Source: Methanosarcina flavescens
GTDB lineage: Archaea; Halobacteriota; Methanosarcinia; Methanosarcinales; Methanosarcinaceae
DNA: 64,000 nt
Reading direction: 5' to 3'
Assembly (NCBI RefSeq): GCF_001304615.2
Contig: NZ_CP032683.1
Coordinates: 682,001-746,000, forward strand
Below, piece by piece: positions 49,457 to 59,734 of this stretch. Each line of letters begins with the position of its first letter. The first letter of the stretch is position 1. The notes beneath the pieces were generated by a model that saw only the letters and a program-made list of their open reading frames with translations, made no database searches and was not told the origin of the DNA. The position numbers and the translations under genes were made by a program.

Positions 49457-50944
49457 TTACGAAAGAGCTCTGGATTCCCGAAACTTCCTTGCAGCCTCCA
49501 CAAGTGAGTCTGCAAGATCCCTGTACGCAACTCCATGCAGATGAGCATAGGAGCCAAGTGTATTTCCAGAAATAAGCCCGTCCCTGTAGTTTTTTATGCC
49601 TGTCCCCCTCGACAGGGTTATTGCAAATTCGGCATCCTCAGGAATTTCCACTATTTCAGAATGATGGAATTCGTGCCCCTTGAAGCTGTTGCCTTTTCTC
49701 CCGAGAATACAGTCCTTACTAAGGGTTCCGATGTTATAACTGACAACTCTTGTTTGCCCCATGATAGTATGCCCTGGAAGCGCCCCGACCATTGAGTATG
49801 TGGATTCCGGCATTGAAGCATCGTGATATGTGCCTTCTCCGGGGACACCTGTACTGATTTTCTCCGTAAGGTACATAAGCCCCCCGCACTCGGCATAAAT
49901 TGGCATTCCTGCAGCAGAAGCTCTTTTGATGTCCTGGCGCATGGACTCATTAGCTTCAAGTTCGGCTGCAAAGAGTTCGGGATAACCGCCCCCAATATAG
50001 AGCCCGTCAATCTCAGGAAGCGAGGTGTCTTTGACAGGGCTAAAGTAAACGATTTCTGCACCTGCAAGTTCTAAAAGATCAAGGTTATCACGATAGTAAA
50101 AGTTGAAAGCTTCATCGAGGGCAACGCCTATTTTTGGCCTGGATACTCCAGAATTGGGAACCGGTGTAAAAGCGCTATTCTCAGGGCTTTTCAGGGGTTT
50201 TGCACTTTTTGCGATTTCCAGGAAGCGGTCCACGTCAATTCCTGTATTGATGATTTCCTCAATACCATGAAGGCGTGCACCAAAGCTTTCATCTCCAAAC
50301 CGTTTTCGGCCTTCAGGAGCCGGTATAAGCCCCAGGTGGCGCATGGAAATTTGCATGGAAGGATCTCTCGGAACGATCCCTATAATTGGAACACCTGTAT
50401 AATACTCGATTGCCTCTCTAGCTTTCTCGGCATGGCGGCGGCTTCCTATGTTATTGAGGATAACGCCTGCAATTTCCACATCAGGGTCGAAGTTCTTATA
50501 TCCATTGACAAGAGCAGCACTTGAACGGGTAATGCTCCGGGCATTAATTACGAGAATTACAGGACATTTGAGGATTTTCGCAATCTGGGCAGTGCTTCCA
50601 AGGTCGCTCAAGCTCTCAAAACCTTCGTAAAGCCCTCGAACCCCTTCAATAATCGCAATATCAGCCCTGTCTCCGGCCTCACAGGCATGGGTATAAACAT
50701 CCAGAATGCCATTCTCATCCATAAGGTAACCGTCAAGGTTTCTGCAGAACCTTCCTGTTATTTCAGTGTGGTAGCTCGGATCGATGTAATCCAGAGCGAC
50801 CTTGAAGGGCTGGACTTTATATCCTCTTGAAACAAGGGCAGCCATCAGTCCCATTGAGATTGTGGTTTTGCCTGAAGAGGAACGATCTGCAGAGATGAGA
50901 ATCCTGGGAATATTCCCTGCTACGGGTTGGCTGTCACTAAGCAT
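49457..50944 (-). CDS. cfbB: Ni-sirohydrochlorin a,c-diamide synthase
   Basis: 495 residues. CfbB amidates the a and c acetate side chains of Ni-sirohydrochlorin using ATP and glutamine, the second step of F430 synthesis. The N-terminal dethiobiotin-synthetase-like ATPase domain has SADRSSSGKTTISMGL and ALDYIDPSYH. The C-terminal class I amidotransferase domain has GLYIGGGYPELFA, the nucleophile Cys in YAECGGLMYL and GHEFHHSEI. It resembles CobB/CbiA; neighbouring cfbC and cfbD settle the F430 assignment. It is the last gene of the cluster, 100 bp after cfbC. Confidence 0.93.
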   Translation of the reverse strand: MLSDSQPVAGNIPRILISADRSSSGKTTISMGLMAALVSRGYKVQPFKVALDYIDPSYHTEITGRFCRNLDGYLMDENGILDVYTHACEAGDRADIAIIEGVRGLYEGFESLSDLGSTAQIAKILKCPVILVINARSITRSSAALVNGYKNFDPDVEIAGVILNNIGSRRHAEKAREAIEYYTGVPIIGIVPRDPSMQISMRHLGLIPAPEGRKRFGDESFGARLHGIEEIINTGIDVDRFLEIAKSAKPLKSPENSAFTPVPNSGVSRPKIGVALDEAFNFYYRDNLDLLELAGAEIVYFSPVKDTSLPEIDGLYIGGGYPELFAAELEANESMRQDIKRASAAGMPIYAECGGLMYLTEKISTGVPGEGTYHDASMPESTYSMVGALPGHTIMGQTRVVSYNIGTLSKDCILGRKGNSFKGHEFHHSEIVEIPEDAEFAITLSRGTGIKNYRDGLISGNTLGSYAHLHGVAYRDLADSLVEAARKFRESRALS

Positions 50945-51044
50945 TTTTATACCCCTGATTTGTTTTGCGTAGCGTTATACGGTAAATATATGTTACAGTC
51001 TATTGTTATTGCAGCTTAAGTCGTAAATTAATCTGTGCTCCAGT

Positions 51045-51842
51045 TCACTTAGTCAGTTCCCTCAACCGCTCGTCACTCAAGGAATTTGATGTAACTCTTT
51101 TTTCGTTTTCAAGGATTGCTTTTCCAAGCTTGCGGTAAGTATTTGCAATATCGGATTCGGGTGCTTTTTCCATTACAGAATAACCTTCCCTTTCACAGTC
51201 CTGGACTTCCTGTCGTTTCGGGATAAAAGCCATAAGCTGACTGCCGATCTCCTCAGCGAATTTCGCAACAATTTCCTCTTCCCTGCTTACGTTTCTGGAA
51301 TTGCAGATTACCCCGCTAAGCGGCATTCCTATTTTGGAAAGACCCTTGCAGATGTTATTTGCTGCATAAAGGGGCATATACTCGCCCGAGGTCAGGACAT
51401 AAGCCTCATTTACGAATCCTTTCCTAACAGGGGCAACAAAGCCGCCGCAGACAATGTCTCCGGGCACATCATAAATTATGAGGTCCTGCTCTTTCAGGAG
51501 ATCTCCTGAGATGCTTTTCAATTTCTGGATGGCAACAATAATTCCCCGACCTGCACACCCTATGCCAGGTTCAGGGCCGCCCGCTTCCACACATTTGACT
51601 CCTGCATATCCTTCAAAAACCACATCTTCTTCTTTTACATCCACACCTTCGCGCAGGAGGTCGAGAATGGTTGGAATTCTCCTGCCTCCAAGCAGGGTGA
51701 TTGATGAGTCACTTTTAGGATCGCAGCCTATGATCATTACTTTCTTTCCTGCCTCGGCACAGGCGGCAGCAACGTTTGAAGCCGTACTCGATTTGCCTAT
51801 TCCGCCCTTTCCGTAGATCGCTATAATCTTTTGTTTTTTCAA
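51045..51842 (-). CDS. cfbC: Ni-sirohydrochlorin a,c-diamide reductive cyclase, NifH-like reductase
   Basis: 265 residues. CfbC is the ATP-driven electron donor to CfbD in the six-electron reduction and ring closure on the way to F430. The Walker A is [16 protein letters not shown]. The [4Fe-4S] ligands are the Cys in GIGCAGRG and in [11 protein letters not shown], as in NifH/BchL. Its place next to cfbD separates it from nitrogenase NifH. It begins 37 bp after cfbD. Confidence 0.95.
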
Positions 51843-51879
51843 AGGATCTTCCTCCTGATGTTATTCTGGTTTTTCTTGC

Positions 51880-52992
51880 TCAGACTTCCTTTGCAACTTC
51901 CCTTAAGGTAGCCCCAAACTCTGATTCCACGATCTCACTGACTCCGAGTGTTTTAGGGTGAAGGTCGATTTCAACCAGTACATATTCGTGCCCCATTTCT
52001 TTTAAGGGCAACACCTGTCTCGGTCCGTTAGTGATCGAAATCAGCTCCATACCTCTTATATGTTCCATAGGGATTGCGTGCGGAACGCCCGTAATTACCG
52101 CAAAATCGAAATCGCTGTATTTTTCCTGTATCAATTCGCTGACCCTTTCCCCTGCAACCGGGTACTCGTCCATACCGCCAATAATTTCATGAACCTCAAC
52201 GTTATGTGCGTTGAAGTCTCTCAATATATATTCGGCATGCTGCCTTACCCTGGGAAGCCCGAGTTTCGGGTCGATATTTGCCATATTGATAAGGTTTTCT
52301 TTTTTCCCAAGAACTGCTGCAACCTCATTGACCGCAAGGGTGATGTCCGCAAACATGTAGCCGGTCTCTTTTTTAGCATTCATGATGACCAGGCCCTTCT
52401 TATCTTCTTTGAGTAGTTCAATTACACGCTTTGCAACCTTATATTTGACATCCCCGCGGGAGGGGGCAAGGTATTCCCTGCTTGCAGCCCCAAACCTCTT
52501 TTCCACGTCTGTAGCTTTTGCAAGGAGGAATTCCTGGCGCTCGAATTCTTTATGGTCGATAATCCCGGCATCGAGTGCGGATTCCAGAGCAAAGAGTACT
52601 CCTTTTGTGTTATTGTGGTAGCCTGCATGCACCTCAACTTCGATTACAGGGACATCCGGATTAGCCTCAAGCACGGCTTCATGCATTTCTTCCCCAATAA
52701 TCATGCTGGCGCAGGTGCCTACAACCCCTATAACCCTGGGATTAAAAAGTTCCACAGATTTGTTTATCAATTCTACAAGTCGGTCGTGACCTCCGAAAAC
52801 AAAGCCATTTTCATCAAGAGCAGTGGTAACTACATGTATGCCGTCTTCTTCGAGCAATCTTGCATGTTTAAATGAGCAACCAGGAGGTCCATGCAGAATA
52901 GCGACATCAACATTTAAGTCTCTGAGAGTGTAAAGAGCCGCAACTATGGAACTGGGGCGGGGATGGATGATTGAAATCTCTTTTCCAGTCAT
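51880..52992 (-). CDS. cfbD: Ni-sirohydrochlorin a,c-diamide reductive cyclase, NifD-like catalytic subunit
   Basis: 370 residues, shorter than NifD. It contains the cluster-binding cysteines in [14 protein letters not shown] (about 40) and [14 protein letters not shown] (about 93), and otherwise the nitrogenase-1 fold. CfbD accepts electrons from CfbC and forms the gamma-lactam-bearing 15,17(3)-seco-F430-17(3)-acid. The ATG at 52990-52992 follows a 222-bp gap, so a separate promoter for cfbDCB is possible. Confidence 0.94.
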
Positions 52993-53214
52993 GATAAGTC
53001 CTCTTATTCAGCTAATCGAGATAATTATCGGGATGATAATGTGTTTCCTTCAGAATTCCTGTATCCCGGAAAACTCGGGTAACTGGCTGTACCGCAGGAT
53101 AGTGCAGGAAACACGAGCAGTGGAATTTAAACAATTAATGGAAACGGATACAGATTGGAAGAGCCTGTATAAAATTGTATCATAATAATTCTGGAAACAA
53201 CTCCGGAAAGAAGT

Positions 53215-54672
53215 TTAGCGAAAGCATTTTACTGAAGAGAGTATTATATCTTCCCCTCCTGCAAATTTTGAGGCTTTTAAGAGTCCCTCATGAAGATTCC
53301 CTGCGTAAGATACGTTTTTCCCACTTATAATTCTCATCCGTTCCCCTACTAGAATAACCTGGCTGCATTTTATACCGAATTTTTTTACAAAACGCTGCAC
53401 GGATTCGGGGGGCAGTCCTTCACAAACCTGAGAGGCTTCTTCTCCCAACACAAGGATTATACTTCCCTTTCTTTCGTCCTTCTTTTTTAGGAGAGCATAT
53501 TCAAGGGCTTTTTCGGCCGAGAGGATATCCATGCCTGAATTGGAATTGTCTATAAGGCAAATGCCATTCATTACCTTTTCTTGCATCCTGCCTGAAAGTC
53601 CTCCGAACTTCTCAATTACCGAAGTAATAGCCTCATGTCCAATTCCAAGTTCGAGGGCGGCTGCTGATGCCGCAACAAAGGCAGTCCTGTAAGCCAAGAA
53701 GTTATACCCTGGACGCGGGGAAACTGAAAAAATTTCTTTTCCCCTGTGCATAAAGCGAATGAAAGAGCCTGATAATTCGGAAGATGTTGAGAACTTTGAA
53801 ATTGATGATGGTGCAGGTCTGCATTCGGATTCCAGCACGAAGTCGGCTGTCTGATCCGGGATTTGAGGAGGCTCAACAATGAAGGGATCTTTAAAAGTTA
53901 AAACCTTTGCCTGGCTTTTTTTTGCAGCTTTGAGTGCATTTTCAGCTCTAGAGTTAATTAGAAGAACACTTTCGGGCTTTGCGTGCCTTACGAGCTGGAG
54001 TTTTGCCTCGCTTGCAAGAGCGGTATTGTTTGCAATCCCATAGTCTGGCGAAAGGGTTGTAAGGATCCCAAAATCAGCAGTGCCTGTACCCCCTATCGAG
54101 ATTTCGAAGATAAAAAAATCCGGCATTAAACCTGATTCAAAAACTTTCTCAACTGCAACTAGAATGCTTCCGGGAGTTATGCTGAGACCTCTATGGATAA
54201 GGGAAGAAGACCCTGCTTTCCAGTATTCGAGCCCCCGTGAGGTATGCAGCACTACTTCAAACCGCCTGGAGAGCATATCAGCAAGGAGGGATGCTGTGCT
54301 TGTTTTTGCTTTTACGCCTGTAACTTCAACCGTTTTTATGCCTGAGAGTCTTGAATCACCTTTGAGGATTTCTCCGACGATCTGGTGATGCGAAAGGACA
54401 ATTTTTCCCTGTGATCTGGCTTCTACGAGCATGGGATAGGCAGAATCCAGATGTACGGGCGCGACCAAAAGATCGAATTTGGCAGAGGGAAAAGGAATTT
54501 TTGAGCAGCATATCCCGTGCTTTTCCTCAAGCTCGAGCAAAGTACCAGGTTCAACTGTCCCGTAAACATCTATGCCGGTTACTTCGTTTCCAGCGGCTGC
54601 GAGACTTTTAGCAATTGGAATGCCGCCGTGAGTCAGGTCGAGCACGGCGAGCTTCCTCCGATGAAGGCCCAT
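53215..54672 (-). CDS. cfbE: Coenzyme F430 synthetase (Mur ligase family)
   Basis: 485 residues. CfbE closes the last carbocyclic ring of F430 in an ATP-dependent step. Mur-ligase features are the P-loop-like [18 protein letters not shown] (about 115), a central domain with [18 protein letters not shown], and a C-terminal domain with [20 protein letters not shown] and VLGEEASQV. The protein lacks the peptidoglycan substrate signature, as expected. It starts 26 bp after cfbA. Confidence 0.92.
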
Positions 54673-54698
54673 GAAAAACCGGACCCCATATAGGAATA

Positions 54699-55091
54699 TT
54701 AAAGGGCTTCCTGAGCCCTTTTGAACACAAGGTCAGCAATAAGCTCATCAGCCCCGAGAGGCTTTGCATAACACAGAGGAATTGTCTTTCCGTCGATTTC
54801 CAGGGTACCGCAGCCATTTTCATCCAGGCTCAGGATTTCAGGGATATCTTTTGTTATATGAACTCCCGAAGCCAGGAAAACCGGTACTGCTGCAACTTTT
54901 GTAACCCCGGTACCTGAAAAGCCTTCAATTGCTTCCTCAAGTGTTGGTTCACTATTCTCCATAAAGCCGGTTCGTACAACGACATTAGTGTGCTTCTGTG
55001 CAATGTAATCTGCGATCTGAGTGACTACTTCCTTGTTGTAAGGCAGCTTGCTCCCGTGGCCTATGGCCAGAATTCCAATTCTTTCTGTCAT
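54699..55091 (-). CDS. cfbA: Sirohydrochlorin nickelochelatase (short CbiX type)
   Basis: 130 residues, the small homodimeric archaeal chelatase. CfbA inserts Ni2+ into sirohydrochlorin, the first committed step of F430 synthesis, and can also insert Co2+. The metal-binding His lies in [17 protein letters not shown] and the second in [19 protein letters not shown] 55091 has GAGGT upstream. It heads the cfbA-E-D-C-B series. Confidence 0.94.
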
Positions 55092-58602: not shown

Positions 58603-58833
58603 TCAGTCCTTTTTTACCCATTTTCCTCTCGAATCTTTTTCGTATACTCTCTTGACTGCGCTCCAGGCAACCTTATGTGCGGTTTCCTCTCTTGTAGCTT
58701 CTCCCCGTCGTTCGGAAGGCTCTTTATACTCTTCCCAGGCGCTATTGAAAGCTTCCCTGTAGATATCCTGTCCGTGTTCCGGCAGGTTCTCCTTAACTGT
58801 TTCCGGCAGTTCGGAATTGCTTTTATATGGCAT
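58603..58833 (-). CDS. ChaB family protein
   Basis: A 76-residue protein: MPYKSNSELPETVKENLPEH followed by GQDIYREAFNSAWEEY and AWSAVKRVYEKD, the ChaB pattern. ChaB proteins are small helical proteins once linked to cation transport regulation; the true role is unclear. ATG at 58831-58833 follows GGGGGAAATGA. It stands alone. Confidence 0.9.
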   Translation of the reverse strand: MPYKSNSELPETVKENLPEHGQDIYREAFNSAWEEYKEPSERRGEATREETAHKVAWSAVKRVYEKDSRGKWVKKD

Positions 58834-59101
58834 TCATTTCCCCCATTTAAGTATAGGAGATTATTTTTAAAAGGATTTTGCGTAAAAATAGAAGGAAATA
58901 ATATCTTCTTCTGATGACCAGTATCCAGCAGTGTTTGTCAGCTAAATTAAAGTGATCTCATCAAGGCGCAAGTACATCTTAATCCAATCCCTGCCTTTCA
59001 CTCAAAGAAGCAGAAAGCTAAAAAAGATAGTATTTATAGGTTAAGTTATAAGACAATATTTATAAATTATATCTGCAAAAATTCGAATATCAATATCGAG
59101 A
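58834..59101. other. Intergenic region
   Basis: AT-rich DNA between divergent genes with TATA-like runs near 59020-59080. Nothing recognised besides the start-less fragment that begins near 59102. Confidence 0.3.
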
Positions 59102-59221
59102 AATGGGTTAGGAGCTTATGGGGGAATTTGGCCAGTAGCTATAATTTTATTTTGGTCATCTTATTGTCGTCGTCTCTCTACAAATGAATTAAAGAGATTA
59201 TATCAAACTTTAGAGGACTGA
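59102..59221 (+). pseudogene. Start-less membrane peptide fragment
   Basis: An open frame without ATG, GTG or TTG encodes a glycine-rich membrane helix followed by a charged end: LGAYGGIWPVAIILFWSSYC and RRLSTNELKRLYQTLED, then TGA. The composition looks protein-like, but the N-terminus is lost or uses another start. It ends 3 bp before the GTG of the DUF1772-like gene in the same frame. Confidence 0.35.
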
Positions 59222-59224
59222 TCT

Positions 59225-59734
59225 GTGAATAGGCACCAGGAAGGAGAAGTTCTATTATGGCTTTTCGTCATCTGGGTTGGTATTCAGTTCGGAGCTGGCC
59301 TTTATGAGAAGCAGATTGTCGTTCCCCAGTGGAGTACTGTGCCTCCGGAAGAAGTTGGCGACGCGCTGTCTCGTTCGGGCCAGGAAAGCTCAGCGCTTAA
59401 ATTCTGGGCATTCGTATCGCCTCCCGTTGCTGTGCTTGCACTTGCAAATGCAGTTGTAGCCTGGCGTACTACGGGCAAGAGACGCAACTGGTGGCTAGCA
59501 GCCTCAATTATAATGGTGATCTACAGCATCTTTACTTACACTTATTTTGTCCCTAAAATGATCTGGTTGTGGCAAGCCGAAACATTGCCTGCTTCTGAGG
59601 TTGAGTCCACAGTTTTCTGGTAGGTGCGTCTAAACTATGTGCGTATGATAATTGGAGCATGTGGGTGGCTAGCAGCTCTTAAAGCTTTGTCACTCTCAAA
59701 TTGCGGCGAGAACAAACTTGAGACTGCCACATAA
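59225..59734 (+). CDS. DUF1772-like membrane protein with in-frame TAG
   Basis: A four-helix membrane protein. GTG 59225 starts 132 residues (GEVLLWLFVIWVGIQFGAG, WAFVSPPVAVLALANAVVAW, WWLAASIIMVIYSIFTYTYF) up to a TAG at 59621-59623. The same frame continues for 36 codons with family-like sequence (VRLNYVRMIIGACGWLAALK) to TAA at 59732-59734. The fourth helix is needed for the fold, so TAG is either a nonsense mutation (for example from TGG), or is read through, perhaps as pyrrolysine, which Methanosarcina can insert. No ribosome binding site is clear. Confidence 0.65.

Follow-up and report, generated by a model that had tools for sequence, protein, structure and literature searches.

The closest described systems are the methylamine methyltransferases MtmB, MtbB, and MttB and the tRNA-His guanylyltransferase Thg1 of Methanosarcina acetivorans. 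In the methyltransferases, the in-frame TAG is part of the active site, and the family members of the genus share it. In Thg1, pyrrolysine was found at a non-essential, lineage-specific UAG considered neutral (PMC2933860). Published work describes UAG as both a sense codon and a stop codon in these archaea. When a UAG was introduced into a reporter gene in M. acetivorans, 20–30% read-through was obtained in a non-specific manner (PMC2933860), and in a survey of in-frame UAG codons the unconserved cases were ascribed to neutral mutation (PMC3639795).

The window, the 64-kb stretch of Methanosarcina flavescens DNA analyzed here, contains a membrane-protein gene with a TAG as the sole interruption of its frame (59225-59734, plus strand); read through this codon, the frame gives 169 residues (Table 1). 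The original prediction of an in-frame amber codon at this site was correct in its coordinates and in the peptide encoded by the tail, and the TAG is in frame with the GTG at 59225. The gene resembles those of the methyltransferases in having homologous sequence on both sides of the TAG, but its TAG is unique and derived from a Trp codon. It resembles the Thg1 gene in having a lineage-specific in-frame amber codon, with a sense codon in relatives, in a pyl-bearing Methanosarcina. However, pyrrolysine was physically shown in Thg1, at a position that is not essential, whereas the window gene has an invariant Trp replaced and is missing in most genomes of the genus. The explanation we favor, and consider probable, is that a single base change recently turned the TGG of Trp133 into an amber TAG, a nonsense mutation in a gene that is dispensable and encodes a small membrane protein of the PF08592 group with four helices.

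Table 1. Features of the interrupted membrane-protein gene and its upstream region (positions in the window)
Feature	Position	Strand	Description
Possible stub of SnoaL-like partner gene	59100..59129	+	EMG*ELMGEF, with TAG in place of CAG; weak evidence
Shine-Dalgarno site, weakened	59212..59216	+	AGAGG in the window; GGAGG in both G016 and G003 (aligned sequence)
Membrane-protein ORF, 5′ part	59225..59623	+	GTG start, 132 open codons, then TAG; encodes long helices 1 to 3 of a membrane protein of the PF08592 (DUF1772/anthrone-oxygenase-like) type
In-frame TAG	59621..59623	+	Replaces TGG of invariant Trp133; G-to-A at 59622
Membrane-protein ORF, former 3′ end	59624..59734	+	36 sense codons (59624-59731) for most of helix 4 and the C-terminal tail; TAA stop (59732-59734)

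Elsewhere in the window, a minus-strand cluster at 49457-55091, named by eye from its sequence, resembles the coenzyme F430 biosynthesis genes cfbA-E, with CbiX-like, NifH-like, NifD-like, Mur-ligase-like, and cobyrinate amidase-like ORFs. A gene for a small ChaB-domain protein (PF06150, 90 bits) at 58603-58833 on the minus strand is kept in G016, a genome of the same genus.

The gene was found in three of 31 genomes of the genus (the window genome, G016, and G003), and neither of the other two has a TAG at this position. G016, which is syntenic with the window across the 14 kb compared, carries an intact, uninterrupted orthologue of 169 amino acids (G016:C1:2963238-2963744, minus strand). The product of the 5′ part of the window gene is 94% identical to this orthologue, which has TGG (Trp133) where the window has TAG. 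The copy in G003, a third species of the genus, contains one +2 and one −1 frameshift and also has TGG at the amber position, so the UAG is not conserved among the orthologues. Using G003 as the outgroup, the G-to-A change was placed on the window lineage. As TGG is present in both G016 and G003 and Trp in all the homologues described below, the TAG is derived, from a single G-to-A change on the window lineage; the alignments indicate that the ancestral residue was Trp, and none of the other genomes searched has the TAG. Apart from this codon, the frame is unbroken. Beyond the UAG, 35 of the 36 tail residues are identical to residues 134-169 of the G016 orthologue, and this match identifies 59624-59731 as genuine homologous coding sequence.

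When species genomes were scanned, a single protein as the query returned no relative, and a two-sequence alignment as the query returned 55, from Actinobacteria, Cyanobacteria, Bacteroidota, myxobacteria, Acidobacteria, and other groups, plus Methanoperedens. Trp occupies the amber-equivalent position in 55 of 55, and the invariant columns of a 26-sequence alignment include W133, N137, and R140. The original prediction had offered a simple TGG-to-TAG mutation as one reading, which is supported by the presence of Trp in every orthologue and homologue checked. It had also specified in advance an alignment of orthologues at the amber residue, naming Trp throughout as half of what would count against a functional role, and Trp throughout is what was found.

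The protein resembles those of PF08592 (Anthrone_oxy, formerly DUF1772). The likeness consists of four long helices and a W/N/R motif in the last one; the intact relatives score at the borderline in Pfam, and the window copy differs in being cut in that last helix. Against a gathering cut-off of 27.3 bits, the intact G016 orthologue scored 25.0 bits and a bacterial relative (L015) 27.3 bits, which bears out the earlier description "DUF1772-like"; the read-through protein of the window scored lower, at 15.8 bits. An NCBIfam search matched no family, and the plasmid collection contained no relative of the Methanoperedens homologue. A fold search of the PDB gave no significant match, so no function can be assigned from structure. 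AlphaFold modeled the intact orthologue (pLDDT 88) as a small all-helical membrane protein with four long helices, at residues 3-28, 65-81, 86-116, and 123-158. About 10 residues of the last of these precede residue 133, so the truncated window product is predicted to keep the first ten residues of the helix and to lose the W/N/R motif. The earlier suggestion that the 36 codons after the TAG are the missing fourth helix was thus essentially right.

The window genome carries pylT (CUA anticodon), pylS, pylB, pylC, and pylD. The tRNA-Pyl gene (cta) was found by search and PylS scored 415 bits, and the ORFs resembling pylB, pylC, and pylD (L013) were recognized from their sequence and gene order rather than with a profile. 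The tRNA-Pyl gene adjoins pylS, and pylB, pylC, and pylD come after. With pylT and pylS, which the original prediction proposed to look for, and the other pyl genes present, some pyrrolysine read-through is possible, and UAG is in principle readable as pyrrolysine here. IS200/IS605-like tnpA and tnpB-type ORFs (L013 9779-11332), identified by eye, lie directly upstream of pylT-pylS.

UAG also serves as a normal stop in this genome. TAG had been described as otherwise rare as a stop, which is only mildly true: of the 41 long, non-overlapping ORFs of the window, three end in TAG, the amber-interrupted gene included, and the extensions past the TAG are only 1 and 3 codons in two of these three. 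The pylB gene (L013 6287-7339, minus strand) ends in TAG as well, with 20 further open codons, and a TAG-ended pylB has been reported for other Methanosarcina (PMC2933860). Through this TAG, the pyrrolysine system itself could yield an extended PylB.

The mtmB gene of the window genome, a genuine pyrrolysine gene, has one in-frame TAG, common to the full-length copies in relatives, and its PYLIS_1 match of 96 bits was the positive control for the Rfam search. In contrast to this mtmB TAG, the TAG of the membrane-protein gene had no match to PYLIS or any other Rfam element up to E = 1. The RNA folding z-score at the site was +0.5, meaning that the structure is not unusual. Because pyrrolysine can be inserted without PYLIS, the lack of this element is weak evidence against such insertion. 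Nothing about this TAG singles it out as selected.

The dN/dS against G016 was about 0.17 for the whole gene, with components of 0.023/0.121 upstream of the TAG and 0.012/0.113 in the tail. Two substitutions in the tail were placed on the window lineage, both silent. The tail has thus not decayed so far, a point against the favored explanation. With so few substitutions, the intact tail fits both a very recent mutation and continued selection on a read-through product, and the changes do not decide between the two.

The gene is most likely dispensable, judging from its patchy presence in the genus, its frameshifts in G003, and the weakened Shine-Dalgarno site in the window. In Methanoperedens (L006), a SnoaL-like gene adjoins the family member and both appear open. 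In G003, the SnoaL-like gene lies upstream of and adjoining the PF08592-like gene, and both appear frameshifted (L003 1-2010, G003:C1:787438-789447). In the window, at most a possible stub of the SnoaL-like gene is left, matching the end of the G003 gene at 23 of 30 bases. The site is the best in the 64 kb, with the next best matching at 20 of 30, and the evidence is weak. G003 has another, more typical PF08592 protein gene (L005 1435-1872, minus strand), which also appears frameshifted.

The main rival to a nonsense mutation in a dispensable gene is a neutral pyrrolysine protein like Thg1 of M. acetivorans, in which UAG is read as pyrrolysine often enough for full-length activity to be kept and the mutation tolerated. 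The complete pyl machinery, the intact tail with silent changes only on the window lineage, and the precedent of Thg1 together with the 20–30% non-specific read-through (PMC2933860) are consistent with this. However, Trp is without exception in the 55 homologues, and pyrrolysine is therefore unlikely to be harmless at residue 133; output would also drop to a fraction, and the Shine-Dalgarno site is degraded as well. We consider this rival unlikely, with a small but real chance of being right. The proposition that UAG is read efficiently and that the Pyl133 membrane protein is functional is very improbable.

A base-call or assembly error at 59622, with TGG as the true codon, is a minor rival. 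It would account for a single-base difference in an otherwise intact gene that is represented by one assembly, but that assembly is a closed genome (3.28 Mb, one contig, 99.99% completeness), and the other differences at the locus resemble ordinary divergence; such an error is quite improbable. Scarcely credible is a selected dual-product gene, in which UAG sets the ratio of the truncated form to a pyrrolysine-containing long form, for example by methylamine supply: nothing specific supports it or the regulated truncation proposed earlier beyond the ambiguity of UAG in the genus (PMC2933860; PMC3639795), and it is opposed by a TAG conserved in neither congener having the gene, a site with no PYLIS or unusual RNA structure, and a truncation that falls inside the last helix.

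Following a recent nonsense mutation in a dispensable gene, UAG would halt most ribosomes and leave a 132-residue protein without most of helix 4. This product would lack the invariant Trp-x3-Asn-x2-Arg motif and would probably be inactive. With pyrrolysyl-tRNA present, pyrrolysine may be inserted by a minority of the ribosomes, which would then complete the 169-residue protein; this would resemble the non-specific UAG read-through of the reporter gene in M. acetivorans. Such read-through would be incidental, neither selected nor regulated, and the locus is probably drifting towards a pseudogene.

A functional pyrrolysine protein from this gene is unlikely; if it existed, the Pyl133 protein would be one of the few pyrrolysine proteins other than methyltransferases, carrying pyrrolysine within a transmembrane helix, at a position where Trp is otherwise invariant. 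By itself, the change of Trp133 to amber alters no current view. It is a further example of amber codons building up in ordinary genes of a pyl-bearing archaeon, and the Trp-to-amber change, together with the intact orthologue of a sister species, offers a clean natural example in which to ask whether general suppression of UAG protects nonsense mutations against selection.
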